From Arthrobacter pullicola (GTDB lineage: Bacteria > Actinomycetota > Actinomycetes > Actinomycetales > Micrococcaceae), in contig NZ_JACSQC010000001.1 in NCBI RefSeq assembly GCF_014836875.1, positions 186,001-250,000 of the forward strand: a DNA stretch of 64,000 bases, in the 5' to 3' direction. The translations under genes were made by a program, and so were the position numbers. Shown piece after piece: positions 9,983-54,246 of the stretch. Each line of letters opens with the position of its first letter. Within the stretch, counting starts at the first letter, position 1. The notes beneath the pieces were generated by a model, which was not told the DNA's origin, did not search any database, and worked only from the letters and a program-made list of their open reading frames with translations.

Positions 9983-12900
9983 TTGCGCAGGATGCTTGCT
10001 CTGCTGCTGTCCTTTTCCGTTCTGGTAACCGGACTGGTGGTGCCGGCCCTGCCGGCCGTCGCTGCCGACACCGGTTTGTCCCTGGTTAAGGAAGCGCCGG
10101 AGACCGTCCTTGTCAACGGGTCCCTGCCCTACACCTTGACGGCAACCAACACCACCGCCGGGACAGCCCAGTACAACGTCTCCTTCCGCGATGTCCTGCC
10201 CGCCGGTGTCAGCTACGTCCCGGGAAGCACAGCTCCCGCAGGTAATGAACCGCTGGTGATCGCGGACAGGCCCGGCACAGGGCAGACCACGCTCATCTGG
10301 CGGGATGCCTTCGACCTGCAGCCCGGCGATTCGAACGGGATTAGCTTCAGGGTTGCCGTGGATGCGGCCAGCCATCCGGTCGGCAACACCTTCAGCAACA
10401 ACGCCGACGTGTACTCCAACACGAACCCGCGCACGGTGCCCGCCTTCAACCCAGCCGGCGCCGTCCGGGCCGGCAGCTTCTCCGCCGAGGCCTCCAGCGG
10501 CCCGGTGTCAACGGCCGTTACGGCCCTGGAAGTCGCCAAGTCCGAGCCCAGCCCGGAATCGGAGCTCCTGCGCGGTGTGCACACTCAGACCACTGCATAC
10601 ACGGTGAAGGTCACGAACAACACCCTCGCTGCCACCGACGGCGTGGTGGTCACGGACTACCTCCCGGCCAACCTCGAATTCCTCGGCTGCGGCGCGGTGG
10701 ACAATGGCCCCGTGGAGTTCACGGGAGCTCCTTCGTTGACCGGAACTCCGGTGGTGACGCCCTGCCTGCTCCCCGCGTCAGTAGAGACCGTGCAGGATCC
10801 GGCGGGATATCCGGCCGGCATCTACACCAAGGTCATCTGGGAGCTGGGCAGCATGGCCGCCGGACAGGTCACTGATATCCGCTACCGCGCGGGTGTGCCC
10901 CTGTTGGAGAACGCGTTGTTCGCTTCGGCCCCCGCCCCTGACAGCCTGGGCCAGGCCGCCAACCTGGACAACAACACCGGCAAGGCCACCCGCCAGGTCG
11001 ACGGCGGCGACGAAGCCACTAACTATGTGGAAGCGGCCGGCCGGTATTCCGGCAAGGTGGAAGCAGACGGCAGCCCCGAGGTTATGGCCAAGGACCGGCA
11101 CACCGTCACCGTGCACGACCTGCGCATCCTCAAGTCGTCAGGTGAAACCGAGAAGTTCGACGCCGGCGAGGTCGTCACTTATACGCTCACCCTGGATGCC
11201 AGTGAGTACGCCTCCAGCAACGGCATCGTGATCACCGACGTTCTGCCTGACGGACTGTGCCCACTGGGCACCTACGACAAAAAACCCGCTGACTGCGATA
11301 TTGCGGGCCATGAGCCGTCTGTTCCCTATACCGCCGTCACCCACGACCCGGCGGCCGGCACCTTCACCCTGAGATTTGATCCGGGCGCCGAGATAGCAGC
11401 CAACGGCAGCTTCACGCTGACGTACAAAGCCCTGATGCGGAAGGACTACAGCGGCGGATCGCTGAACAATACCCCGACCTCCGCCGGTGACTCCTTCGAA
11501 AACAAGGTTTCCCAGACGGCAGTCACCACCCCCATCCCGGCAAACCCAGTGGACTCCGGCACTGCCAACGTGACCGACCCGTCCTCGGCCGGCCTGAGCA
11601 CCGACGCCGAGTCACTGACCAAGAGGATCGGGCTTGATTCCGCTTCGATGACGTGTTCGAGCGCCGATTTCCGCGCCGACCCGTCCGGGACAGATGACGT
11701 CACGTTCGCCAAGGGTGACCGCGTGTGCTTTGAGATCCAGGTGAAGTTCTCCAGCGCCGTGGAAACCCGCAACGCCGTCGTGACGGACTTCCTGCCGTCG
11801 AACCTGACCTATGAGAACGGCTCCGCCACGGTCTCCGGCTTCGCCCCACCCGTGCAGTTCAATGCGGATCAGGGCCTGCTCACCTGGTCCCTGGGCAGCG
11901 ACGTCGGCGGCAGCCGGGTGGTTCCGGCGGGCAGCGTCTTCACGGTCGTCTTCGGCGCCATCGTCAACTCCGCCCCGGCCCAGAGCGGAGACAAGACAGG
12001 AAACCTGGCCAAGCTGCGTGCCACTAACACCGCAGGCCAGGCCCGTTCGCACCGCGACGAGGTCAATTTCCTCACCGAGAAGACCCCGGTGAGCATCGAG
12101 AAGTCAGCTTCCTCGGCCCAGGTGCGCCAGGGAGACAAGGTGACCTACTCGCTCAAGGTCGGGAACGATTCCTCCCGCACTGTCAGCAACGTCCGGGTCT
12201 GGGATGTGCTCCCGGAAGAAATCCGCTGCACCGACGTCACCAATCCGGGCGGCGGCACCTGCACCGACCCCGGAGCATCCGGACACCCCACCTTCGCGGG
12301 CAATGCGGACCACAGCGCCTTGACCTGGACGATCCCGGACATCGCACCGCGTGCCAGCCATGACCTGACCTACGAAGTCACGATGCCCTCCTACCTGGGC
12401 GTTTCCGAGCGGTTGACGAACACGGCGCACGTCCGCTCCTACGAAGCAGCCACCAACCTGGGCGGCACCGTCACGCACTACCCCGGCGAGAACATTGACA
12501 CCTCTGTGGACCAGTTGGATCAGGATCCCGATCCGGTCCGGGACGATGCGCTGGTCCAGGTTCCGTCTGCGGCCGTTGCCAAGGGCGTGACGTCGGCAGT
12601 AGGCGAGGCAGGCAACACCGGTTCGGAACCGGTGCCCGGGTCCTCGACCCAGGCAACCATCGGGGAAAAGGTGACGTACACCGTCACCGCCCGCATTCCG
12701 GCAGGCACCACTGTGTACAACGGAGCGCTCAAGGACACCATGCCGCCTGGCCTCGCAGTGCTGCAGGACAACGGCCAGCCGAAGATCGGCGCCACCGTTC
12801 CGGCGGGCTACACCGGGAGCATCACTCCAGCCGTGGGAACCGATGGCACGGTCACGCTGAACATTGGGACCTATCAGAACAACACACCCCAGGAGCAGGT

Positions 12901-15900
12901 TTTCACCCTGCTCATTGAGGCCGTGGTTACCGATCTCCAGGCCAATGCGGCCGGCGCCATCCGGACCAACACCGCGACCCTCTCGAGCGACGCCGGAACG
13001 TACCCGGGGGCAACCGACCCGTCAGACCGGACCGCCACCGCCCAGACCGGCATTGTGGAACCGGCACCGGGAGTCACCAAAACCAACGACCGCCCGGCCT
13101 CCAGCCAGACGGTCAAGGGCGGCGATGTCATCACTTACACCGTCACCGGGCGCAACGCTTCCGGTTCGGTGCTGCACAATGCGGTCCTGACGGATTGCCT
13201 GCCGGAAGGACTGCGGCTGACCAGCACCGGTTTGGACAACCGGGTCCTCACTGCCGCGGAGGCCGGCTGCGCGGCCGGCAGCACCCTCATCAGCTGGAAT
13301 CTCGGCGACCTGGCCCCCGGAGCTTCGGAAGTGCGCACTTACACGGCCGAGGTGGAAAACGCGACGGCCGGCTCACTGACCTACACCAACACCGTCCGGC
13401 TCGCGGGCAGCAGCCTGAGCGCCCCCCAGGCCGACGGCGATGTCCGGACCTACACCACCCAGGCATCAAGCGCAGTCAAGGTGGCTGGCGCAACCGTAAC
13501 GAAGACGGCGAACCCTGCCTCGGCGCGCAAGGGTGAAACCGTTACGTACACGGTCACAACCACGATTCCCGCCAACATCAACTTCTACAACCTCACCGTC
13601 CTGGATACCCTCCCGGCCGGAATCGACCTCAACAGCATCACGCCTGTGGGTGCGAATACGACCTATCTGGGCGCCGACGGACAAAAGGCCGGCTTCCTGC
13701 TGGGCGATTTCACGGCAAGCCCCCAGGAACGGATCATCGCGGTGCAGTACTCGGCAAAGCTGGCCACCACCGCAGCACCAGCAGCCGGGACAATCCTGAC
13801 CAACACGGCCTTCCCGGTCTGGGACACCGTCAGCCAGCCGGCACCCGCAACACCGGCTTATCCCTTCGACGAGGAGGGCCCGAAGGCTTCGGCCACCGTC
13901 AAGGTCCTGGAGCCTAAGGTCAGCATCACCAAGGTGGTTTCCAACACCACGCCGGAACCCGGCGAGAACTTCACCTACACCGTCCGGGCAACCAACTGGA
14001 GCGGCGCCAACGCCAGCACCGCCCACAACGTGGTGGTCACCGACGTCGTACCGTCCAATGTCCTGGTCGATGCTGCCTCGCTGGGCAACGGCGGGGCCCT
14101 GCAAGGCGCCGACCCCCAGACCGGGGGCGGAACCATCACCTGGACCATCTCCCAGATCGCGCCGGGAGCAACGATCCAGCTCACCTATAACGCCACGCTG
14201 GCGGCATCCGGGAAGCTGACCGCGGCGGGCCTGAAGAACACCGCCAAGGTTTCGTCCTACACGTCGCTGCCGGGAACGGACCCGGCTGACACTGGACGAA
14301 CCTATACAGGCCCCGAAGCGACAGCGACCGTCACACCGGACTTCCCGAAGCTGGCCGCCGCCAAGACCACTCCCGACGGCGGTATCGCTTACCGGGGACA
14401 GCCTTTCACCTGGCAGGTCACGGTAACCAACTCCGGCCGGGGAACGGCCTTCGCCGCCGGCGCCACCGACACGCTTCCGGAGAACTGGACTTACGTTGCC
14501 GACAGCGCGCGGGTCAGCGTCAACACCGGCGCTGCAGCCGCCGTCGAACCCAATATTTCCGGAGTCCGGAACCTGACCTGGGCAAGGCTCGGTGATCTGC
14601 CCTCCGGGCGGTCGCTGACGATCACGTACCAGGCCGTCCCGGCGACTGAGGCAGCGGTCGGCATGGCAACGGCACACCGCAACACGGCCACGCCCACTGG
14701 CGCCGACCGGACAGGAGCGCCCGGCAACCAGACCGGGAGCTACTCCGGACCGTCCACCAGCGCGGAAGCGAAGATTGCCTCTGCTGACCTTTCGATCGAG
14801 AAGACGGTCGGCACGGCCCCTGTGGCCGGTTTGAACGGCTCCTGGGTCCTGACCGTGACCAACAACGGCCCTGATACAGCAGCCGGACCGTTCACCGTGA
14901 AGGACACCTTCGACCTGCAGAATGCCGCCACAGTCACCGGTATATCCGGTGCGGGCTGGACCTGCCAGATCGGAACAATGGAGTGCACACGGGCAGGGAC
15001 ACTGGCTCCCGGCGCTTCGTTCCAGCCGATCACGGTCACGTACTCGGTGATCGGAGGCGGCGAGGGCGCCGTCCTGACAAACACCGCACGCGTCACCGGG
15101 CAAACCCATGATCCGGTCCCGGGGAACAACACCGATACCGCCACGGCAACCGTCTCCGCCTACGCGGATCTGGCCCTGGCCAAGGACCTGGTCGGATCCA
15201 TGACGGCCGGCGAAAACGTCGCCTACACGCTGAACGTCAGCAACAGGGGCCCCTCCGATTCCAGCAAGGGGTTCACCGTCACGGATACCATTCCCGCCGG
15301 GACCAGCTTTGTCTCGGCCTCCGGGACCGATTGGACCTGCGGCGCGCCGGCGGGCGACAAGGTGACGTGCTCCTACGGCGCTGACCTTGCCCCCGGTGCC
15401 AGCGCCTCCCAGCTGGACCTGGTACTGGCGGTTGACTCCAGCACGACGGCGGCCGTCACCAACACGGCCACCGTCACCCCGGTTACCCCGGAAGCTCCGG
15501 ACGGAGAGCCCCAGCCGACTGGAAACAACACGGATACCGCGACGGCCACTCCGCAGCAGGTCACGGATTTGGGCATCACCAAGATCCTGTCCTCCCAGGA
15601 CCTGGTCGCCGGTCAGCAGGCCACCTACACCGTCGCCGTCACGAACTACGGGCCTTCTGCGGCCCGGGACGTGGTGGTCACAGACCAGCTGGATTCCCGC
15701 CTGGCCTTCGTGTCCGCTTCAGGAAGTGACTGGACCTGCTCTGCCATGGACCAGGATGTCTCCTGCGCCTATACAGCCAATGGAGGTGTGCTGACCGCGG
15801 CGTCACCAGCGGTCCCCACCAGCTTCGACCTGACCGTCCTGGTCTCCGCGTCCAGCGGCGGCGCCAGCATCGCCAATACGGCGTCGGTATCCACCAGCAC

Positions 15901-18514
15901 GCCGGAGACCGGTCCCGCGCCAAACAGCAGCACCAGCACCGGCTCCACCACGGCCCGCGCCGACCTGGCCATCGCCAAATCGCACACCGACGCAGCGGTA
16001 GCCGGACAAAACCTGGCGTACACCCTGGTGGTCAGCAACAACGGGCCGTCGAATTCGAGCCTTGCTGCCGGGGGCGGTTCCCTGGCGGTTACGGATACCC
16101 TGCCGTCCGGCATGTCCTTCGTGTCCGCCAGCGCCGGCTGGGGCTGCGCCGCCGCAGGCCAGATGGTTGCCTGCAACTATCCGGGCAGCCTGGCTCCCGG
16201 CGGGTCAGTCTCCCTGGTCCTGACGGTGGCCATCGCCGCGGATGTCCAGGGCCAGGTTTACAACACCGCCTATGTGACCGGTGACGGTACGGTTCCTGAC
16301 CCGGATCCGGCCAACAACCACAGCACCGATCCAACCATTGTGCTCCGGGATTCTGCACTCTCACTGGTCAAAACGCTGGATACACCGGCACCGGTGGTCG
16401 CCGGAACCACCGCGCAGTTCACCCTGCAGGCAGCGAACGCCGGCCCCGGCAACGCCGAATCGGTCACGGTCCGGGACACCCTCCCGCAGTACCTGAGCTT
16501 TGTCTCGGCATCCGGTGCAGGCTGGACCTGCGAGGCCTACGGCCAGGACGTTGTTTGTGATCGGCCGACGGCGGCGATCGGCACGCAGCCGCCGATTACG
16601 GTACTGGCCGCAGTGGATCCGTCCGTGCCGGTATCCCCCGCCAACGGGGTCCTGACCGTCCAGAACGTGGCCGAACTGGCCAGCGGCACGCCGTCGACCG
16701 TCACCAATCCCGGCCCGGTGGATGTCCCGATCATTGCCAGCGCTGACCTGGAGCTGACCAAGGCGCCTTCCGCCGCCGCAGTCGAGGCCGGAACAGCGAT
16801 GGACTGGGTTTTGACCGTCACCAATAACGGGCCAAGCACAGCAACCGGACCGCTGAGCGTCACGGATACGCTGCCTGCTGGCCAGAGCTTCGTATCCGCA
16901 GCCGGAACCGGATGGATCTGCACGCCCGGGACCATGCCGACCGGCCCGGCCCCGCAGCAGCCGGTCACCTGTATTCACGCAGCTTCGCTGGCGGCAGGTG
17001 AATCCGCGGAACCGCTGGTCCTTACCGTGATGGTTGCGGCGGACGCGGCGGAAGCGGACATGGTGAATACCGCCGTTGTTTCCTCGCCCACACCTGACCC
17101 GGTGGCGGCAAACAACACCGGCTCGGCCACGGTATCTGTGGACCGCGTCCTCTCCCTGGACATCACCAAATCCCACGTCGGCAACGGCACGGTCGGAGAG
17201 GTGAAGGACTTCCGGCTCACGGTAACCAACACCGGAACATCCAACGTCCAGGACCTCCAGGTCACTGACGTCCTCCCGGCCGGACTGAAGTTTGAATCCG
17301 CCACGGGGAACGGCTGGACCTGCACAGAGGCCGGCGGCACCATTTCCTGCGACCATCCGGGGACCCTCGCTCCCGGGGAGTCCGCAGAGGACATCCTCGT
17401 CACTGTGATGGTGGAACCGGCTGCCTACCCGTCGGCAGTCAACACGGCGGCGGCTTCCTCCACGGACCCGGACCTGCCGGGGACCTCCACGGCGGACGAC
17501 CGGCTCGACGTCGACCCTTCCGCCGCGCTGGCGCTGAGCAAGGTCCACAACGGCGGCTTCGCCGTCGGCAGCCAGGGAACCTACACGCTGACGGTTACCA
17601 ACACGGGACCGACAGCTACTCCCGGGCCGGTGGTTCTTTCCGACGACCTGCCGGATTCCCTCCGGTTTGTCTCCGCGGCCGGTGACGGCTGGTCCTGCAC
17701 CGCCGCTGACCAAATGGTGGACTGCGCGCGGGCGGGCGAGCTTGCCGTCGGCGCCGCCGCGGAACTGGTCCTGACGGTCGACGTCCTGGCCGGCGCCTAT
17801 CCGGAGGTTGAGAACACGGCAACGGCCGGCGCACCCGGGTCTCCCCCGGTGAGTTCCACCGACACCGCACCGGTGCTTCCGCTGGTGGTCTGGAGCATCA
17901 CCAAGGAGCTGGCTGGCTACTCCAACCACCAGGCCGAATACGTGATCACGGTGACCAACACCGGCCAGAACACCTCTGTGTCTCCGGTGACCGTAACGGA
18001 CAACCTGCCCTCGGGCCTGGAGTTTGTTTCCGCGGAGGGCACCGGGTGGACCTGTCCGCCCGCCGGTGCGCTGGTTGAGTGTGTCCACGACGCCGGGATC
18101 GCTCCAGGCGAGAGCCGGGAGCTGACCGTGGCCGCGAAGGTTACGGCCGCGCCGGGAACAGTGATTGAGAACGTTGCGTCTGTCTCCGGCGGCGGAGGAT
18201 CCTCGGCAGGATTCCCGGTGCCTCCGGTCGAACCCGAGCCGGAACCTCCGGTTGACGGAGGGGAAAAACCTCCCGTTGACGGAGGTGAGGAACCCGTTCC
18301 TCCCGTCGACGACGAGGACCCGGCTCCGTCGCCCGGCGCCGGCCAGACACCGGCTGCGGACAGCGGTCCGGCACTTGTCGAGGCCACAACCAACGGCAAA
18401 CTGGCTGACACGGGGAGCTCGGGAACCCTGCTTCTCTGGGCCGGGCTGTTGATCCTGCTTGCTGGAGCCGGAGTCCTCTGGCTGGAACGCCGCCGGAGGG
18501 GAACTCCCGCCTAG
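9983..18514 (+). CDS. Giant DUF11-repeat cell-wall surface protein with LADTG sorting signal
   Basis: A 2,843-residue secreted protein. Residues 1-28 are a signal peptide if the TTG at 9983 is used (MRRMLALLLSF, ending AVAA); the ATG at 9992 would drop the two arginines. I count 19 beta-sandwich repeats of the DUF11 type, each with a TYTVTVTN-like strand, a VTDTLPAG-like strand and an APG turn, to about residue 2730. Units 11-19 add a WTC...C pair (such as GWTCTEAGGTISC), absent from the first ten. A Pro/Glu/Gly linker (PVDGGE repeats) leads to LADTG (2807-2811), a hydrophobic helix and RRRR, a classic sortase signal. LAxTG is the class E sortase motif; such an enzyme is encoded at 36.1-37.0 kb. 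Probably a stalk or adhesin (inference). Confidence 0.93.
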   Translation: MRRMLALLLSFSVLVTGLVVPALPAVAADTGLSLVKEAPETVLVNGSLPYTLTATNTTAGTAQYNVSFRDVLPAGVSYVPGSTAPAGNEPLVIADRPGTGQTTLIWRDAFDLQPGDSNGISFRVAVDAASHPVGNTFSNNADVYSNTNPRTVPAFNPAGAVRAGSFSAEASSGPVSTAVTALEVAKSEPSPESELLRGVHTQTTAYTVKVTNNTLAATDGVVVTDYLPANLEFLGCGAVDNGPVEFTGAPSLTGTPVVTPCLLPASVETVQDPAGYPAGIYTKVIWELGSMAAGQVTDIRYRAGVPLLENALFASAPAPDSLGQAANLDNNTGKATRQVDGGDEATNYVEAAGRYSGKVEADGSPEVMAKDRHTVTVHDLRILKSSGETEKFDAGEVVTYTLTLDASEYASSNGIVITDVLPDGLCPLGTYDKKPADCDIAGHEPSVPYTAVTHDPAAGTFTLRFDPGAEIAANGSFTLTYKALMRKDYSGGSLNNTPTSAGDSFENKVSQTAVTTPIPANPVDSGTANVTDPSSAGLSTDAESLTKRIGLDSASMTCSSADFRADPSGTDDVTFAKGDRVCFEIQVKFSSAVETRNAVVTDFLPSNLTYENGSATVSGFAPPVQFNADQGLLTWSLGSDVGGSRVVPAGSVFTVVFGAIVNSAPAQSGDKTGNLAKLRATNTAGQARSHRDEVNFLTEKTPVSIEKSASSAQVRQGDKVTYSLKVGNDSSRTVSNVRVWDVLPEEIRCTDVTNPGGGTCTDPGASGHPTFAGNADHSALTWTIPDIAPRASHDLTYEVTMPSYLGVSERLTNTAHVRSYEAATNLGGTVTHYPGENIDTSVDQLDQDPDPVRDDALVQVPSAAVAKGVTSAVGEAGNTGSEPVPGSSTQATIGEKVTYTVTARIPAGTTVYNGALKDTMPPGLAVLQDNGQPKIGATVPAGYTGSITPAVGTDGTVTLNIGTYQNNTPQEQVFTLLIEAVVTDLQANAAGAIRTNTATLSSDAGTYPGATDPSDRTATAQTGIVEPAPGVTKTNDRPASSQTVKGGDVITYTVTGRNASGSVLHNAVLTDCLPEGLRLTSTGLDNRVLTAAEAGCAAGSTLISWNLGDLAPGASEVRTYTAEVENATAGSLTYTNTVRLAGSSLSAPQADGDVRTYTTQASSAVKVAGATVTKTANPASARKGETVTYTVTTTIPANINFYNLTVLDTLPAGIDLNSITPVGANTTYLGADGQKAGFLLGDFTASPQERIIAVQYSAKLATTAAPAAGTILTNTAFPVWDTVSQPAPATPAYPFDEEGPKASATVKVLEPKVSITKVVSNTTPEPGENFTYTVRATNWSGANASTAHNVVVTDVVPSNVLVDAASLGNGGALQGADPQTGGGTITWTISQIAPGATIQLTYNATLAASGKLTAAGLKNTAKVSSYTSLPGTDPADTGRTYTGPEATATVTPDFPKLAAAKTTPDGGIAYRGQPFTWQVTVTNSGRGTAFAAGATDTLPENWTYVADSARVSVNTGAAAAVEPNISGVRNLTWARLGDLPSGRSLTITYQAVPATEAAVGMATAHRNTATPTGADRTGAPGNQTGSYSGPSTSAEAKIASADLSIEKTVGTAPVAGLNGSWVLTVTNNGPDTAAGPFTVKDTFDLQNAATVTGISGAGWTCQIGTMECTRAGTLAPGASFQPITVTYSVIGGGEGAVLTNTARVTGQTHDPVPGNNTDTATATVSAYADLALAKDLVGSMTAGENVAYTLNVSNRGPSDSSKGFTVTDTIPAGTSFVSASGTDWTCGAPAGDKVTCSYGADLAPGASASQLDLVLAVDSSTTAAVTNTATVTPVTPEAPDGEPQPTGNNTDTATATPQQVTDLGITKILSSQDLVAGQQATYTVAVTNYGPSAARDVVVTDQLDSRLAFVSASGSDWTCSAMDQDVSCAYTANGGVLTAASPAVPTSFDLTVLVSASSGGASIANTASVSTSTPETGPAPNSSTSTGSTTARADLAIAKSHTDAAVAGQNLAYTLVVSNNGPSNSSLAAGGGSLAVTDTLPSGMSFVSASAGWGCAAAGQMVACNYPGSLAPGGSVSLVLTVAIAADVQGQVYNTAYVTGDGTVPDPDPANNHSTDPTIVLRDSALSLVKTLDTPAPVVAGTTAQFTLQAANAGPGNAESVTVRDTLPQYLSFVSASGAGWTCEAYGQDVVCDRPTAAIGTQPPITVLAAVDPSVPVSPANGVLTVQNVAELASGTPSTVTNPGPVDVPIIASADLELTKAPSAAAVEAGTAMDWVLTVTNNGPSTATGPLSVTDTLPAGQSFVSAAGTGWICTPGTMPTGPAPQQPVTCIHAASLAAGESAEPLVLTVMVAADAAEADMVNTAVVSSPTPDPVAANNTGSATVSVDRVLSLDITKSHVGNGTVGEVKDFRLTVTNTGTSNVQDLQVTDVLPAGLKFESATGNGWTCTEAGGTISCDHPGTLAPGESAEDILVTVMVEPAAYPSAVNTAAASSTDPDLPGTSTADDRLDVDPSAALALSKVHNGGFAVGSQGTYTLTVTNTGPTATPGPVVLSDDLPDSLRFVSAAGDGWSCTAADQMVDCARAGELAVGAAAELVLTVDVLAGAYPEVENTATAGAPGSPPVSSTDTAPVLPLVVWSITKELAGYSNHQAEYVITVTNTGQNTSVSPVTVTDNLPSGLEFVSAEGTGWTCPPAGALVECVHDAGIAPGESRELTVAAKVTAAPGTVIENVASVSGGGGSSAGFPVPPVEPEPEPPVDGGEKPPVDGGEEPVPPVDDEDPAPSPGAGQTPAADSGPALVEATTNGKLADTGSSGTLLLWAGLLILLAGAGVLWLERRRRGTPA

Positions 18515-36080: not shown

Positions 36081-36962
36081 TTATCCCTGTCCTCCTGCCC
36101 TGGCCGCTGCGATTGCGGCGATCTCAGCCGGGGGTCCTGCCGACGCGGGCTGCCAGGACTCCATCACCGCGTAGGCGATGAACCGTTCCTGGGAGCCGAA
36201 CCGCGGATTACACGTAGTCAGGGTCAGTATCCGTTCTGTGGGTGCTGCGCTGGGCTGTGTGGGGACCGGCGCCAGCACGTCCACCTGGTCCGGCAGAACT
36301 ATCTGGCTGTTCCGGTAGATATAGGTGTAGTAGCCCTCTGCCGTCTGCACATATATACGGTCCCCCGGCACCAGGGTGTCGACGGCGTCCAGGACCTGTC
36401 CGTGCGTTTGCCGATGGCCCGCCAACGCAAAATTGCCAACTTCGCCGGGCATGGCGGTTTCCGGGTAATGGCCAAGGCCCAGTGTGTCCAGGACCTCGGT
36501 TCCCACGCCCTGGGTCACCGGCCGGGCATGCTCCGGACCAAACCGGGGGATATAGACGGCGGCGAAGGTGCTGCCCTCAGCATCGGGCGCGGGAAGCACG
36601 ACTGGGTTGCCGTAGTCTTCCAGGGCCGCGGCTTCGGTGGAGGCAGGCGGGGCGTCAAACCCGGAGAAGAGTTCCTCCATGGCCTGTTCCTGCCTGCGGT
36701 CTGACTCGATATTGGTCCACCACAATTCCCAGACCACAAAGAGGACCAGGACCAGCCCGGCAGTGATGAGAAGTTCACCAATGACCTGCACTGCCAGGGA
36801 GCCACGTCCACGCCGTCCGCCCTCTCGAAGGTTCCGCCGTGCCCGGCGGGATTCGGGCGCAGGGGTACCGGTGCCTGGGATGTCCTCCGTTGAACTGCGC
36901 AATCGGTCCCCGATCCTCTCCATACTCTGCCGGGTGGTACCGGGCACTTTGGTGCTGGTCAT
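36081..36962 (-). CDS. Class E sortase
   Basis: A 293-residue membrane-anchored transpeptidase that attaches LAxTG proteins to peptidoglycan. A basic N-terminal cytoplasmic part is followed by one helix (about residues 62-82, ELLITAGLVLVLFVVWELWW) and the sortase domain. The catalytic residues are His183 in LAGHRQTHG, Cys251 in TLTTCNPRFG and Arg260 in SQERFIAYA. The T-L-T-T-C-N-P form is typical of class E. The LADTG-ending 2,843-residue protein in this window is a plausible substrate. Divergent from crgA and first gene of an operon with the small membrane protein and pabA. Confidence 0.93.
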   Translation of the reverse strand: MTSTKVPGTTRQSMERIGDRLRSSTEDIPGTGTPAPESRRARRNLREGGRRGRGSLAVQVIGELLITAGLVLVLFVVWELWWTNIESDRRQEQAMEELFSGFDAPPASTEAAALEDYGNPVVLPAPDAEGSTFAAVYIPRFGPEHARPVTQGVGTEVLDTLGLGHYPETAMPGEVGNFALAGHRQTHGQVLDAVDTLVPGDRIYVQTAEGYYTYIYRNSQIVLPDQVDVLAPVPTQPSAAPTERILTLTTCNPRFGSQERFIAYAVMESWQPASAGPPAEIAAIAAARAGGQG

Positions 36963-37110
36963 TCGCTACGATTGGAAGAGGGGAACCTGCAAGCCACCCA
37001 GCTCACCGCCGATACCCAGTCAGGATATCGTCACCCGGGCGCGGCGCGCGGATCTCCCACAGACCATAATCGCACCGGCGTGAAGTGAGCCGGTTCCGCT
37101 AGGAGGATCC

Positions 37111-37368
37111 GTGCCCGAGTCAAAGTCCCGCAAGAAGCCGTCAGCCGCTGACGCACCGGCTCCGGCCAAAGCGAAGACCGCGCCCAAACCGAACCCGGTT
37201 TGGTACAAGCCGGTGATGTTCGGGCTGATGCTGATTGGCCTGATCTGGATCATCGTTTTTTACATTTCCGAGGGTGTCTACCCGGTCCCGGCGCTGGGCT
37301 CAGGGAATATTCTGGTCGGCTTCGGACTCGCGATCGCTGGCTTCCTGATGACGACGCGCTGGCGCTAA
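37111..37368 (+). CDS. crgA: Cell division regulator CrgA
   Basis: An 85-residue protein of the actinobacterial CrgA family, which sits at the septum and recruits or restrains FtsZ, FtsI and CwsA-type partners. The N-terminal 30 residues are polar and Lys/Pro/Ala-rich; two transmembrane helices follow (VMFGLMLIGLIWIIVFYI and ILVGFGLAIAGFLMT), joined by a short loop with VYPVPALG, and the protein ends TTRWR. AGGAGGA lies four bases before the GTG at 37111. Divergent from the sortase; followed by a hairpin and the DnaA-box cluster. Confidence 0.95.
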   Translation: MPESKSRKKPSAADAPAPAKAKTAPKPNPVWYKPVMFGLMLIGLIWIIVFYISEGVYPVPALGSGNILVGFGLAIAGFLMTTRWR

Positions 37369-37389
37369 ACTTCCCCAGATAAACCCCAG

Positions 37390-37430
37390 CTCCCGGCATG
37401 CGGTCCTCCGCCTGCCGGGAGTTCGTGTTT
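37390..37430 (+). terminator. Terminator after crgA
   Basis: CTCCCGGCA (37390-37398 area) pairs with TGCCGGGAG just downstream around a 14-base loop, followed by TTCGTGTTTT. It ends crgA transcription before the DnaA-box region. Confidence 0.7.
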
Positions 37431-37458
37431 TAAACAGGCTTTCCCACAGCTGGCCAAC

Positions 37459-37911
37459 TTCTCCACAGGGGGTTATCCACAGGAGTGCATAACCTGTTCA
37501 GAACAGCCCCGGTCAGCCAGTGGACGTTGTGCCGCGCTTTCCCCAGCTTTTCCACAAGGGGACGTGGAAAAGCTGGGGATAACTCAGGGGCAACCCGACC
37601 GAGGTTGTACCCACCATGTGCACAGAGTTATCCACAACTGTGGGTAACTCTGTGGCCAGTCAGGGTCAATTTGGCGTGTTTACGCGGAACATAGTTATCC
37701 ACAGCTGTGGAATTACATGTGTGTAACTCAGGCGGCGCACTGGATAACTTCCATCGGAAGTTACCCACTGGCTGTGCATAACTCTCAGCGCTACTTGTGG
37801 GTAACCTGCCTTTCCATGCGTTAAGGTCCTGATTTCGGCCCGACCCGCTGCGTCCGATCGCAGAGTTACACGCCTGTAAGTTATTAACAATGTGGGTATC
37901 TCTGTGGATAA
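37459..37911. repeat. Off-origin cluster of DnaA boxes
   Basis: Non-coding region (37369-38031) between crgA and the rhomboid gene. Perfect TTATCCACA boxes are at 37473-37481, 37628-37636, 37695-37703 (plus) and 37903-37911 (minus). Boxes with one mismatch include 37459-37467, 37548-37556, 37574-37582 (minus), 37639-37647 (minus), and TGTGCATAA near 37773 and TGTGGGTAA near 37796 (minus). Gene orientation places the origin at dnaA/dnaN, so this is more likely a DnaA-titrating or regulatory locus, as described for a Streptomyces DnaA-box cluster, than the origin itself. An AT-rich TTATTAACAA also occurs at 37881-37890. Confidence 0.8.
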
Positions 37912-38031
37912 CCACCAGTCCCGCTTGCCGGTTGAGGAGTATCAACAGATGAGTGCAGAGTGGTTAACGGCAGCAGGCCCCCGGGTTTACCGGGGGCCTG
38001 CTGCGCGGCGGGGTGGTTGGAAGCCGGGCAG

Positions 38032-38874
38032 CTAGAAGCTGGGCGTCCAGAAAAAGGCGAGGCCCAGCAGCACCAGTGCGATCGCGGCGAGACCGCCGAA
38101 CTGCACCAGCGACCGGCGCGGGCCCTTGGGGGCGTAGGCCAGCACTGCGGCGCAGGCAGCGCCAGTCACCAAACCGCCCAGATGCGCCTGCCAGGAGATG
38201 CTTGGGTAAACGAAGCCCAGGACCAGGTTGATGCCGATAAGGATCAACAGGGCTTTGACATCGCCGCCACGCTGACGCTGAATCACGAACAGGGCACCGA
38301 ATAGTCCGAAGATGGCACCGGAGGCGCCCACCACAGCTTGGAAGGCGGGGGCGAGCATCAGGACCCCGATGGAGCCGCCCAGCGCTGAAATCAGGTACAG
38401 CAGGATAAATCTGACCCGGCCCAGCAGTGGTTCCAGGGACCGGCCCAGGAGCCACAGCGCATAGAGGTTGAACGCGATGTGAAAGATAAAGCCGGGGGAG
38501 TGCAGGAACGCAGCACTGAACAGCCGCCAGGGTTCGGAGGCCGCGAGGATCGGGGCGAACAGGAACCGTTCGGCGAAGCCCGGAACCAGCCATTGAAGGG
38601 CGTAGGCGATTCCGCACAGAATCATCAGCGTTGTGGTGACCACCGGTTTCCCGGGCCGGGCGGCGCCACCATAGGGGGTCCGGTAGGCGGGGGCATTCCG
38701 GCGGCTCTCCTGGAAACAGTCAACGCACTGGACTCCCACAGGTGCGCTGTGCTGGCACTCGGGGCAGGCGGGCCGGCCGCAGCGCTGGCAGCGGATATAG
38801 CTGACACGGTCCGGATGCCGAGGACAGACCGGTACTTCAGGGGCCGGCTGGCCGGCCGGAATTCCGTAGGACAT
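38032..38874 (-). CDS. Rhomboid intramembrane serine protease with N-terminal zinc finger
   Basis: A 280-residue rhomboid protease that cleaves transmembrane substrates. Six to seven helices follow a cytoplasmic Cys/His-rich domain (Cys17, His20, Cys29, Cys32, Cys37, Cys40, His42, Cys50, Cys53), which resembles a B-box zinc finger and is common in actinobacterial rhomboids. The catalytic dyad is Ser185 in VVGASGAIFGLFG and His231 in WQAHLGGLVTG; the HIAFNLYALWLLG helix holds the oxyanion asparagine. ATG 38874 is used; the frame is open to 38943, but that part includes the ppiA terminator. The substrate is unknown. Confidence 0.94.
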   Translation of the reverse strand: MSYGIPAGQPAPEVPVCPRHPDRVSYIRCQRCGRPACPECQHSAPVGVQCVDCFQESRRNAPAYRTPYGGAARPGKPVVTTTLMILCGIAYALQWLVPGFAERFLFAPILAASEPWRLFSAAFLHSPGFIFHIAFNLYALWLLGRSLEPLLGRVRFILLYLISALGGSIGVLMLAPAFQAVVGASGAIFGLFGALFVIQRQRGGDVKALLILIGINLVLGFVYPSISWQAHLGGLVTGAACAAVLAYAPKGPRRSLVQFGGLAAIALVLLGLAFFWTPSF

Positions 38875-38904
38875 GTTGGGTTTGGCTCCAGGGGCTCTTA
38901 TGGG

Positions 38905-38932
38905 AAAACCCCGGCCGGAGGTCCGGCCGGGG
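38905..38932 (-). terminator. Terminator after the cyclophilin gene
   Basis: CCCCGGCCGGA (38909-38919) pairs perfectly with TCCGGCCGGGG (38922-38932) around two bases, and the minus-strand transcript then reads TTTT. It lies between the ppiA stop (38950) and the rhomboid start. Confidence 0.85.
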
Positions 38933-38949
38933 TGTGCTGCCAACCAGGG

Positions 38950-51802: not shown

Positions 51803-52368
51803 TGCAGGGTGCCGCCTTTCACAACGTACTTGTCAGTACTACTGAGTTTTCATGAACACGTGAGGGAGCGTTTCGGGCTGCCAGGATGCCCGGTCTGCCC
51901 GCTGGGAATCACAACACTACCCTGTGCCAGCTTACCGCCGGCAGGTTGTCATTTACCGGGGTGCTGCGGGATCAGGCCGCAGCTGCCTTTGTGCCATTGC
52001 CCAATGGGTTCATCGAGGCAGGTTTTGGAACCTGCGGAGCAGGCAGATGGAACATCGGATGTTTGGTCCGGAAGGTCGGATGTTATTTGGTGGAACCGAA
52101 TTTCTTAAGATTCGTAGTGTTAATAACTGCTGTGGATACTGTGGATAACTCGACCCTGCCGGGCATTCCGGCGTTTTAAGCCTGTTGATAACCTGTGGAC
52201 GCTCAGCCTACGTGCCGGGTGCGGCTGTTGGGAACTATTTTGCAGTTCCGCGTATCCACAAGGCAATACCCGTAATGAGCTGTTATCCACCGAGTTATCC
52301 ACACCCTTGTCCACACGTGTTAATTTCGAGCCCCTGCGGGGCCCCTACATCCGCGCGCTGACGCGGAT
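51803..52368. other. Replication origin oriC (dnaA-dnaN intergenic part)
   Basis: A 566-base non-coding region between dnaA and dnaN, the standard place for an actinobacterial origin. Perfect or consensus DnaA boxes are TGTGGATAA 52140-52148, TTATCCACA 52295-52303 and TTGTCCACA 52307-52315; near matches are at 52131-52139, about 52183, 52252-52260 and 52283-52291. AT-rich tracts (TTTCTTAAGATTCG, GTGTTAATAAC at about 52100-52125) could be the unwinding element. Flanking genes diverge from here in the fork direction, supporting the call. Confidence 0.88.
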
Positions 52369-53787
52369 CTAGGCCTCGCGCTGCTGCTGCTTGATTCGGT
52401 TCGTCAGCTCGGTGACCTGGTTATAGATGGCCCGGCGTTCGGCCATGAGTTCGCGGATCTTGCGGTCTGCGTGAATAACGGTCGTATGATCGCGCCCACC
52501 GAGTTCCTGCCCGATCTTCGGCAGCGACATGTCCGTCAGCTCGCGGCAGAGGTACATGGCGATCTGGCGGGCGGTGACCAAGGTCCGGGTCCGCGACTTG
52601 CTGCACAGCTCCTCCAGGCTGATCTGGAAGTAGGCTGCCGTCTGCCCAAGGATCGAAGCGGCAGTAATCTCCTGGGCGCCGTCGTCGGTAATCAGGTCCT
52701 TGAGCACAATCTCGGCCAGACCAACATCGACCTGCTGGCGGTTGAGGCTGGCGAAGGCTGTCACCCGGATCAGGGCGCCTTCCAGCTCGCGGATGTTAGT
52801 GGAGATCTTCGAGGCGATGTACTCCAGCACATCGTCGGGGGCGCTCAGCGAATCGCCGATGGCCTTCTTGCGCAGAATCGCGATCCGGGTTTCCAGCTCC
52901 GGCGGCTGCACATCGGTCAGCAGGCCCCACTCAAAGCGCGAACGCATCCGCTCCTCAAACCCGGAGAGCTGCTTGGGTGGCAGGTCGGAGGTGATGACCA
53001 CCTGCTTGTTGTGGTTGTGCAGGGCATTGAAGGTGTGGAAGAACTCCTCCTGCGTCGCGTCCTTGTTCGCCAGGAACTGGATGTCGTCAATAAGCAGGAT
53101 GTCGACGTTGCGGTACAGCTGCTTGAAGCTGGCGCCCTCGTCGTAGCGGATGGAGTTGATGAAATCGTTGGTGAACTCCTCCGAGTTCACATACCGCACG
53201 CGGATCCCCGTATAGAGGTGGCGGGCATAATGGCCGATCGCGTGCAGCAGGTGGGTCTTGCCCAGTCCTGAATCGCCGTAGATGAACAGCGGGTTGTAGG
53301 CCTTAGCGGGGGCTTCGGCCACGGCAACGGCAGCGGCGTGGGCAAACCGGTTCGAAGACCCGATGACAAAAGTCTCAAAAACGTACTTGGGGTTCAGCCG
53401 GCCGAATTCCTGTGAAGTGCTCGGCGGAGTGGGTGAGGGTGCGCTTTCGCCGGTCGGAACGGGTGACGGCGCAGCTTCTTCGGGCTCAGGCTCCGGTTCT
53501 GCCTGGGCAACGGGAGTCAGATCGGCGTCAATCACAAAGGCGCACTGGATGTCCGCCTGGAAGACCGTCTTGAGGACCTCATCAAGGATGTTCTTCAGCT
53601 GGGTCTGCAGGACTTCGCGGGTCAGTTCATTGGGGACGGCCACAAGAAGGGTTGTGCCGATCAGGCCCTGGGCCTGGGCCAGGACCACGAATCCGCGCTG
53701 CCGGGGGGAAACCCTGTCATCGGTCTCCAGCGTCCTGATGACCTTGCGCCAGGAGCTGCCGACATCATTGATTTCGTCCGTACCCAC
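52369..53787 (-). CDS. dnaA: Chromosomal replication initiator DnaA
   Basis: A 472-residue AAA+ initiator. Domain I ([17 protein letters not shown] and onward) is followed by a short Pro/Ser/Glu linker, the AAA+ core with Walker [17 protein letters not shown] and Walker [11 protein letters not shown], and domain IV whose DnaA-box-binding helix includes [18 protein letters not shown] 53787 is chosen because AGAGG lies six bases before it and the conserved N-terminus starts there; the frame stays open to 54072 but covers DnaA boxes and does not look coding. Confidence 0.98.
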
Positions 53788-54246
53788 AAAAACCTCTCGT
53801 GACGCCAGCAAAGGGCGGTTTAAGAACCGGAATCCAGGCCTGGATCCCGAAGGGTCATCCACAGAGTTATACACAGTCGTGGATAAACACCCAGCGCCAA
53901 GCCTAGAGCATCGGTTCGGCAGTCGGTAGCCGGAATCCCGCGCCCGGGCGTGACTTGCGGCGCGACTCACATCCGGCCGTGAACAGTCATACTCGGCACT
54001 TGTCCACAGGTGTGGAAATATCTGTATGAACAGGCCCCGCACCCCCCGGTTTGACTGCAAACGGGGTCTCACCTAACGTTGAGTAGTCCTTTGTGTCTGC
54101 TATCTGCACTCATTCATGCCCATCAGGGTTCTGGGAATCAGGGTCCAGGTCCGGGTTGAGCGTAGTCAGTCACATGAAAAGAGCGCCGCTTGTGCTTTCC
54201 CCTTGATGCAGCAAGCGCCAGCGCAGATTGTCTTGGAGTAACCACC
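53788..54246. other. dnaA-rpmH intergenic region with DnaA boxes
   Basis: A 459-base non-coding stretch between divergent dnaA and rpmH. TTGTCCACA at 54000-54008 is a consensus DnaA box; TCATCCACA (about 53866), TTATACACA (about 53876) and CGTGGATAA (about 53890) differ by one base. It probably serves dnaA autoregulation and is a second part of the origin region. It also holds the rpmH promoter. Confidence 0.7.
54051..54079 (+). promoter_or_regulatory. Probable rpmH promoter
   Basis: TTGACT (54051-54056) and TAACGT (54074-54079) are spaced by exactly 17 bases, a good housekeeping sigma-factor arrangement for an actinobacterium, about 165 bases before rpmH. Confidence 0.55.

Follow-up and report, generated by a model that had tools for sequence, protein, structure and literature searches.

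A DnaA-box cluster beside a rhomboid gene, conserved across Actinomycetes: a probable DnaA-binding control locus outside oriC

Introduction

To our knowledge, how actinomycetes time replication is poorly understood. In Streptomyces coelicolor, Smulczyk-Krawczyszyn and co-workers reportedly found in 2006 that non-coding clusters of DnaA boxes near oriC repress untimely initiation. These clusters are said to be named H69 (after its cosmid), H24 and D78, the one tested by deletion reportedly being D78 and not H69. In Escherichia coli, the sites DARS1 and DARS2 lie far from oriC, and one of our comparisons below turns on their architecture.

Passages of three papers (PMC4585315, PMC5742627 and PMC10950094) describe clusters of DnaA boxes that repress untimely initiation in both S. 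coelicolor and Bacillus subtilis. The oriC-proximal clusters of B. subtilis (Okumura et al. 2012, as related in parts of PMC4585315 and PMC5742627) restrain initiation near oriC and are similar in kind to the locus described here, although B. subtilis belongs to another phylum and the likeness is one of description, not of sequence. E. coli datA, according to a portion of PMC5742627, is an intergenic locus near oriC, downstream of both of its neighbors (glyVXY and queG), in which the essential boxes all point one way and are accompanied by an IHF site; according to the same paper, box I of DARS is opposite to boxes II and III.

A DnaA-box cluster is already a known kind of element. In the open-licence literature, with subscription journals lying outside it, we found no description of class-wide conservation, of attachment to a rhomboid gene or of the three-box unit presented below, and no paper on DnaA boxes together with crgA, on a DnaA-reactivating sequence together with actinobacteria, or on the D78 cluster.

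Results

A dense cluster of DnaA boxes between crgA and a rhomboid gene

The window, that is, the whole stretch of 64,000 nucleotides that was analyzed (C7:186001-250000), belongs to the 3.62-Mb genome of Arthrobacter pullicola, which is available in 15 contigs. Its relevant features are the following.

37111..37368, + strand: crgA, with its 3' end toward the cluster (Pfam CrgA, E 3.4e-31)
37381..37430, + strand: hairpin after crgA, an inverted repeat (37376-37440 folds with -31.5 kcal/mol, z -5.6)
37459..37911, both strands: DnaA-box cluster, 4 perfect boxes and 6 with one mismatch
37968..38007, - strand: hairpin after the rhomboid gene (z -6.5 on the - strand)
38032..38943, - strand: rhomboid protease gene, with its 3' end toward the cluster (Pfam Rhomboid, E 1.9e-31)
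51803..52368: dnaA-dnaN gap, likely oriC, with two opposed box arrays and an AT-rich flank
52369..53784, - strand: dnaA (Pfam Bac_DnaA and Bac_DnaA_C), its start assigned by choice within the open frame 52369-54072

Pfam matches identify both neighbors of the cluster as the crgA and rhomboid genes that a prior sequence-only reading had named, and likewise confirm dnaA, dnaN, gyrB and gyrA. Since crgA and the rhomboid gene converge, the gap between them is flanked by 3' ends on both sides, and the cluster sits between two hairpins that are probable terminators. A terminator scan requiring a T-run and a scan for sigma-70-like promoters each returned nothing in 36900-38300, and an Rfam search returned tRNAs only. 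A mechanical ORF of 105 aa lies inside the gap (37628-37945, - strand); we take the gap to be non-coding because its length varies from 378 to 903 bp in 28 genomes of the same genus.

Exactly four perfect TTATCCACA boxes (37473+, 37628+, 37695+ and 37903-) and six boxes with one mismatch were counted at 37459-37911, which bears out the four perfect and at least six single-mismatch boxes reported in the sequence-only reading and gives 10 boxes with at most one mismatch, distributed over both strands. Density is above chance for a site outside oriC, the maxima in 1000 dinucleotide shuffles of the same 453-bp stretch being one perfect box and three with at most one mismatch. The dnaA-dnaN gap holds two perfect boxes and seven in all, so the cluster is indeed, as had been proposed, at least as rich as that gap, from which it is separated by 13.9 kb (the earlier estimate was about 14 kb from dnaA). 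On the scale of the genome, perfect boxes number 28 in 3.62 Mb, and the crgA-rhomboid gap is the sole place where four of them occur close together, the next-richest spots being the rplI-dnaB gap, with three at C7:289620-289842, and the dnaA-dnaN gap with two.

The cluster is conserved across the class

We compiled 104 crgA loci in two samples. The first comprises 58 loci from 58 genomes, that of A. pullicola included (CrgA was found in 58 of 59 genomes, and two weak second matches were excluded), and the second 46 further loci from a class-wide search (CrgA in 245 of 246 genomes), consisting of the 26 best scorers and 20 loci selected with a view to closed genomes and to diversity. Of the 104 loci, 77 have one or more perfect TTRTCCACA boxes in the 1 kb 3' of crgA, and a single one has such a box in the 1 kb upstream. 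By group, the 3' box is found in 29/29 loci of the same genus (A. pullicola included), 3/10 of other genera of the family, 14/26 of other families of the order and 31/39 of other orders; the corresponding upstream counts are 0/29, 0/10, 0/26 and 1/39. The 27 loci with no perfect box within 1 kb 3' of crgA are explained in part by a crgA gene that lies farther off, and the low count in the other genera of the family by a greater distance there between crgA and the rhomboid gene.

The sequence-only reading had named the absence of box enrichment in close relatives as an outcome that would speak against it; all 29 same-genus loci carry the cluster, with two to six perfect boxes and 3-12 boxes with at most one mismatch, so conservation is strong. 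Alignment of 28 same-genus gaps reveals near-invariant modules amid otherwise variable sequence.

A further set of 80 named loci consists of the best of the GyrA relatives listed, Arthrobacter and other Micrococcaceae being the closest among the matches listed. In the 49 of these 80 loci with a definable crgA-rhomboid gap, a perfect TTATCCACA box is present in 45 (absent from four) and a module in 38 (absent from 11). Where the rhomboid gene is present but crgA was not found in the stretch, a module lies at most 4 kb past the rhomboid gene in 12 of 12 named loci. These counts cover 49 and 12 of the 80, the remaining 19 being loci that could not be judged. In the Streptomyces-like genomes (f34, identity inferred), the crgA-rhomboid gap contains three perfect boxes in seven of seven.

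The highest box count among the 58 loci of the first sample belongs to another family: in L049 (G055), a crgA-rhomboid gap of 915 bp and only 51% G+C contains 14 boxes that are perfect or one mismatch off.

A three-box unit recurs within the cluster and at other DnaA-box sites

The recurring unit consists of two tandem boxes, whose starts are 12-13 bp apart, and a third box that faces them. Its instances in the window, with the other repeats of the cluster, are the following.

37540..37579: perfect inverted repeat of 16 nt with an 8-nt loop, overlapping the near-boxes 37548+ and 37574-
37616..37659: module A, four boxes set as two tandem pairs that face each other (box starts at 37616+, 37628+, 37639- and 37651-)
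37695..37726: pair B, the perfect box 37695+ facing degenerate boxes
37881..37911, - strand: module D, the tandem boxes 37903- and 37891- (12 bp apart) with a facing TTATTAACA at 37881+
53855..53886, + strand: tandem-plus-facing module of three boxes on the 5' side of dnaA

Module A is a near-palindrome whose outer two boxes have two mismatches each and whose core is conserved in the genus, while module D is the three-box unit that recurs across the class. Pair B is strongly conserved in the genus alignment, yet falls under the threshold for a module. Two modules per locus are found in 23 of the 29 same-genus loci and one in the other six. The inverted repeat at 37540-37579 is not evident in the genus consensus.

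With the facing distance allowed to range from 9 to 20 bp, the unit occurs 3' of crgA in 77/104 loci, in 0/104 upstream stretches and in 0/520 shuffles. Counted so that one locus may contribute repeatedly, facing distances of 10, 11 and 12 occur in 43, 44 and 13 loci, respectively, and each of the distances 9, 13, 14 and 15 is seen in two loci.

We also built a profile from 28 cores of other families (none from the family of A. pullicola, two families from its order), whose consensus is close to gagTTaTCCACAgG-tt--cCACA--TGtGGAtaA-t-aca. Applied to the 80 named loci, with some of which the training set may share families, and to 400 kb each of the A. pullicola genome and of G001, the profile gave 122 matches at E<0.01, of which 80 fall in the crgA-rhomboid gap or just past the rhomboid gene, while the dnaA-dnaN gap accounts for 17, the 5' side of dnaA for 24 and other DNA for one. 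By the mismatch rule, the unit is present in 23 of 74 named dnaA-dnaN gaps and, in the named loci, at 24 places on the 5' side of dnaA; one further instance was counted in 1.65 Mb. The unit is also present in the dnaB gap of A. pullicola. The idea that it is specific to the crgA-rhomboid locus was therefore dropped, and because the unit occurs also at the 5' side of dnaA, in some oriC gaps and upstream of dnaB, it is not proof of one function; it may mark any strong DnaA site. The module at the 5' side of dnaA possibly serves autoregulation.

Comparison with known systems

Like the S. coelicolor clusters, the locus is non-coding and near oriC, and the Streptomyces-like genomes mentioned above carry boxes at the same place. 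We take S. coelicolor crgA to be SCO3854, three gene numbers from SCO3857, and dnaB to be SCO3911. Cosmid H69 of S. coelicolor carries SCO3857, as stated in an excerpt of PMC3878966. If those gene numbers hold, the crgA and dnaB clusters described here may correspond to H69 and H24, in which case H69 would be syntenic with the crgA-rhomboid locus.

With E. coli datA the cluster shares its intergenic position 3' of both neighbors, close to oriC. However, in contrast to datA, whose essential boxes run one way beside an IHF site in the portion of PMC5742627 cited above, the cluster has boxes on both strands that face one another, the comparison being one with all of its boxes. As for DARS, we located the cores of E. 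coli DARS1 and DARS2 by their box pattern in fetched sequence; each has one box facing two tandem boxes, with a facing spacing of 14 and a tandem spacing of 12. The actinomycete unit likewise sets one box opposite two tandem boxes with a tandem spacing of 12-13, but its facing spacing is mostly 10-12 rather than 14, it lies near the origin and it is also found at the 5' side of dnaA. We do not claim membership in the DARS class because the facing spacing mostly differs. Finally, the cluster resembles the actinomycete oriC in the dnaA-dnaN gap in having the same 9-bp boxes at similar density, but differs from it in architecture, with interleaved facing modules instead of opposed arrays and an AT-rich flank.

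The cluster persists when crgA or dnaA is far away

As for INDEPENDENCE, the cluster is retained where crgA is far away and also where the locus is far from dnaA. We anchored the search on the rhomboid gene in 11 genomes that were box-poor or belonged to other genera of the family, with G013 as a control. In the five genomes with crgA at least 20 kb away (G030, G032, G033, G034 and G046), three of which (G030, G032 and G033) have crgA on another contig than the rhomboid gene, a cluster with a module lies at most 1.5 kb 3' of the rhomboid gene, without exception. The same is true of the four genomes in which crgA is 1.9-2.9 kb away (G035, G036, G060 and G293), where cluster and module adjoin the rhomboid gene. 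In G051, crgA follows the rhomboid gene with the same orientation, and only three boxes, each with one mismatch, are present. In G041 the two genes are convergent over 0.7 kb, and their gap has no box. The suggestion that the boxes regulate crgA and division thus loses its footing, as they are 3' of both genes and remain with the rhomboid gene in these 5/5 and 4/4 genomes.

The cluster is close to the origin in most genomes checked, at about 13-31 kb from dnaA (13.9 kb in A. pullicola), and is kept at much larger distances in three rearranged genomes, G251 (about 93 kb), G029 (108 kb) and G046 (177 kb). Because the cluster persists despite these moves, it fits a trans-acting DnaA-binding locus, not one half of oriC or a regulator of crgA.

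Raw GC skew turns at the cluster through gene composition

The sequence-only reading held that a switch of GC skew at the cluster instead of at dnaA would favor an origin. Over C7:1-400000, cumulative GC skew is indeed lowest at C7:223554, inside the cluster, and in the closed relative G001 the minimum is 15.6 kb from the contig start and 0.4 kb from its cluster. In four other same-genus genomes the minimum lies inside gyrA (G014 and G008, each at 9.8 kb from dnaA), 0.6 kb past gyrA (G020, 10.9 kb) or beyond crgA (G023, 19.1 kb). Three of the six genomes thus have it inside gyrA or at most 0.6 kb away, and one has it beyond crgA. In all six, the synonymous-site skew of the dnaN-ppiA block resembles that of the dnaA-side arm, and a regression with crude codon-usage covariates favors the crgA side, with log-likelihood differences over dispersion of 2.3 to 6.5. 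In other families the values are -3.2 (G038, crgA side), -0.5 (G037) and +0.2 (G056, dnaA side). We judge this regression to be confounded, because the same gyrA, gyrB and ppiA genes are involved in each genome.

Gene by gene, the coding strand is C-rich in gyrB and gyrA in 16 of 16 genomes measured and in ppiA in 18 of 18, among them a Streptomyces-like and a Mycobacterium-like genome (identities inferred), while recF and the rhomboid gene scatter around zero. The composition of the block between oriC and the cluster is largely a property of gyrA, gyrB and ppiA, whose gene-specific codon composition explains the turn of the raw skew at the cluster.

G029, from another genus of the family, has the crgA block, with its module, 108 kb from dnaA and is the most telling natural test. 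Averaged over gene direction and taken without the 40-50 kb stretch, its synonymous-site skew is -0.27 to the left of oriC and 0.00 over the 38 kb on the right; between 50 and 110 kb, as far as the cluster, it amounts to 0.05, and past the cluster to 0.17. The skew thus leaves negative values at dnaA-dnaN and is positive before the cluster, at which there is no change of sign, even though it climbs further past it. Minima of the raw curve are found at 3.5 kb and at 77.5 kb, the latter apparently the lesser, and neither is at the cluster. Raw cumulative skew was rejected as an origin marker after the gene-by-gene control and the rearranged G029: it can misplace the origin by about 15 kb where codon-biased genes such as gyrA, gyrB and ppiA extend as far as a junction of convergent genes. 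The turn expected of an origin is therefore seen in the raw skew of A. pullicola, but it is explained by gene composition and absent from G029.

The dnaA-dnaN gap of the six same-genus genomes has opposed box arrays, with one stray box in G020, and its most AT-rich 50 bp (64-68%) adjoin the arrays; the cluster, by contrast, interleaves boxes of either direction, and its most AT-rich 50 bp (60-64%) coincide in part with boxes. According to a passage of PMC4285127, the AT-rich unwinding element of an oriC flanks the box array instead of lying inside it. In Kocuria rhizophila, of the same family, a putative oriC with an unwinding element and DnaA-trios is annotated at dnaA-dnaN in the part of PMC12500396 that bears on it. 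From the C-rich gyrA, gyrB and ppiA genes and from the skew of G029, we conclude that the cluster is unlikely to be an origin or a crgA promoter site; the sequence-only reading had ranked an origin as less likely, and with gene composition taken into account nothing supports origin activity.

Discussion

We consider it probable, with some reserve, that Actinomycetes have inherited the cluster as a self-contained DnaA-binding control locus, which restrains initiation and is of the same kind as datA and the Streptomyces clusters. We favor this reading because of the reported restraining clusters and because of what was found of known regulators in the A. pullicola genome: neither SeqA, a regulator in E. 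coli, nor YabA, one in B. subtilis, was found in it, and the only strong match to the Hda family is DnaA itself, below the model cut-off. DnaA would bind the high-affinity boxes of the cluster, and the facing and tandem boxes would arrange several DnaA molecules into a fixed complex. Since the cluster usually lies close to dnaA, at about 13-31 kb, it would be copied soon after initiation, and this copying would double the competing DnaA sites and reduce the DnaA that is available, or active, for oriC to fire again. We infer both the occupancy of the cluster by DnaA and a negative effect on initiation, the direction of that effect being suggested only by analogy. The proposal of a DnaA-titration locus made in the sequence-only reading holds insofar as a conserved DnaA-binding control locus outside oriC is the best reading, but titration, ATP hydrolysis and reactivation are not separable from sequence. 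Several findings weigh against this reading: the three-box unit at the 5' side of dnaA and in 23/74 dnaA-dnaN gaps, the 27/104 loci with no perfect box within 1 kb 3' of crgA, the box-free gap of G041, the three one-mismatch boxes of G051, the named gaps that lack a module or a perfect box, the raw skew that turns at the cluster and the codon-usage regression that leaned toward an origin there.

Other readings have to be set against this one. A DARS-like site would act in the opposite direction, its facing pair and tandem box assembling ADP-DnaA, from which ADP would be released and ATP-DnaA regenerated, so that initiation would be promoted. The E. coli DARS1 and DARS2 cores share the orientation logic and tandem spacing of the actinomycete unit, and both the opposite orientation of box I in DARS and the one-way essential boxes of datA (portion of PMC5742627) are in its favor. 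The facing spacing, which is 14 in only two of the 104 loci, and the occurrence of the unit 5' of dnaA as well as in some oriC gaps speak against it, as does the location of DARS1 and DARS2 far from oriC, and we regard such a role as unlikely. A bolder version, which is speculative and to which we give a little less credence, is that of an ancient DnaA remodeling element at a fixed place 3' of the ppiA-rhomboid genes. Its three-box core would parallel the E. coli DARS core but be independent of it, and the element would do more than soak DnaA up: it would convert DnaA between the ADP-bound and the ATP-bound state and be the class's main timing device for replication.

Three further readings are improbable to differing degrees. 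DnaA bound at the cluster might act as a roadblock or terminator between the convergent crgA and rhomboid genes and prevent antisense read-through, which would suit a position between two 3' ends and a paper on DnaA-box complexes that stop transcription, known to us by its title in the references of PMC10950094. But strong hairpins already follow both genes, the cluster remains where crgA is far away or several kilobases separate crgA from the rhomboid gene, and there are far more boxes than such a role should need, which makes a roadblock improbable. That the cluster is the actual or a second replication origin is very improbable: the raw skew minimum, the dnaN-ppiA skew, the regression and the further climb of skew in G029 are outweighed by the gene effect, by the minima near gyrA or beyond crgA in four of the six genomes, by the early sign change in G029, by the box layout and by the annotation in Kocuria. 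The least credible of all is control of crgA or rhomboid transcription by DnaA from these boxes. A division gene, crgA, is close by, but the boxes are 3' of both genes, the promoter scan was negative and the cluster persists with no crgA nearby.

In most of the families examined, this putative DnaA-binding locus has kept its position as well as the orientation and spacing of its boxes, also where its neighbors have moved. Such a conserved locus offers a precise DNA target for the question of how actinomycetes time replication.

Additional observations

A third cluster of DnaA boxes lies in the rplI-dnaB gap of A. pullicola, at L001 5608-5843 (C7:289607-289842, outside the window), and consists of three perfect and two one-mismatch boxes; the position of dnaB was obtained by Pfam search, and rplI was named from its translated ORF. 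Upstream of dnaB, two to three perfect boxes are present in all 22 same-genus loci returned, and at least one in two of eight loci from other families.

Within the window, a sortase-domain gene (36081-36962) is located between a GATase gene and crgA. An open frame at 9983-18514 encodes 2843 aa with 16 DUF11 repeats and is probably a large surface or adhesin-like protein.
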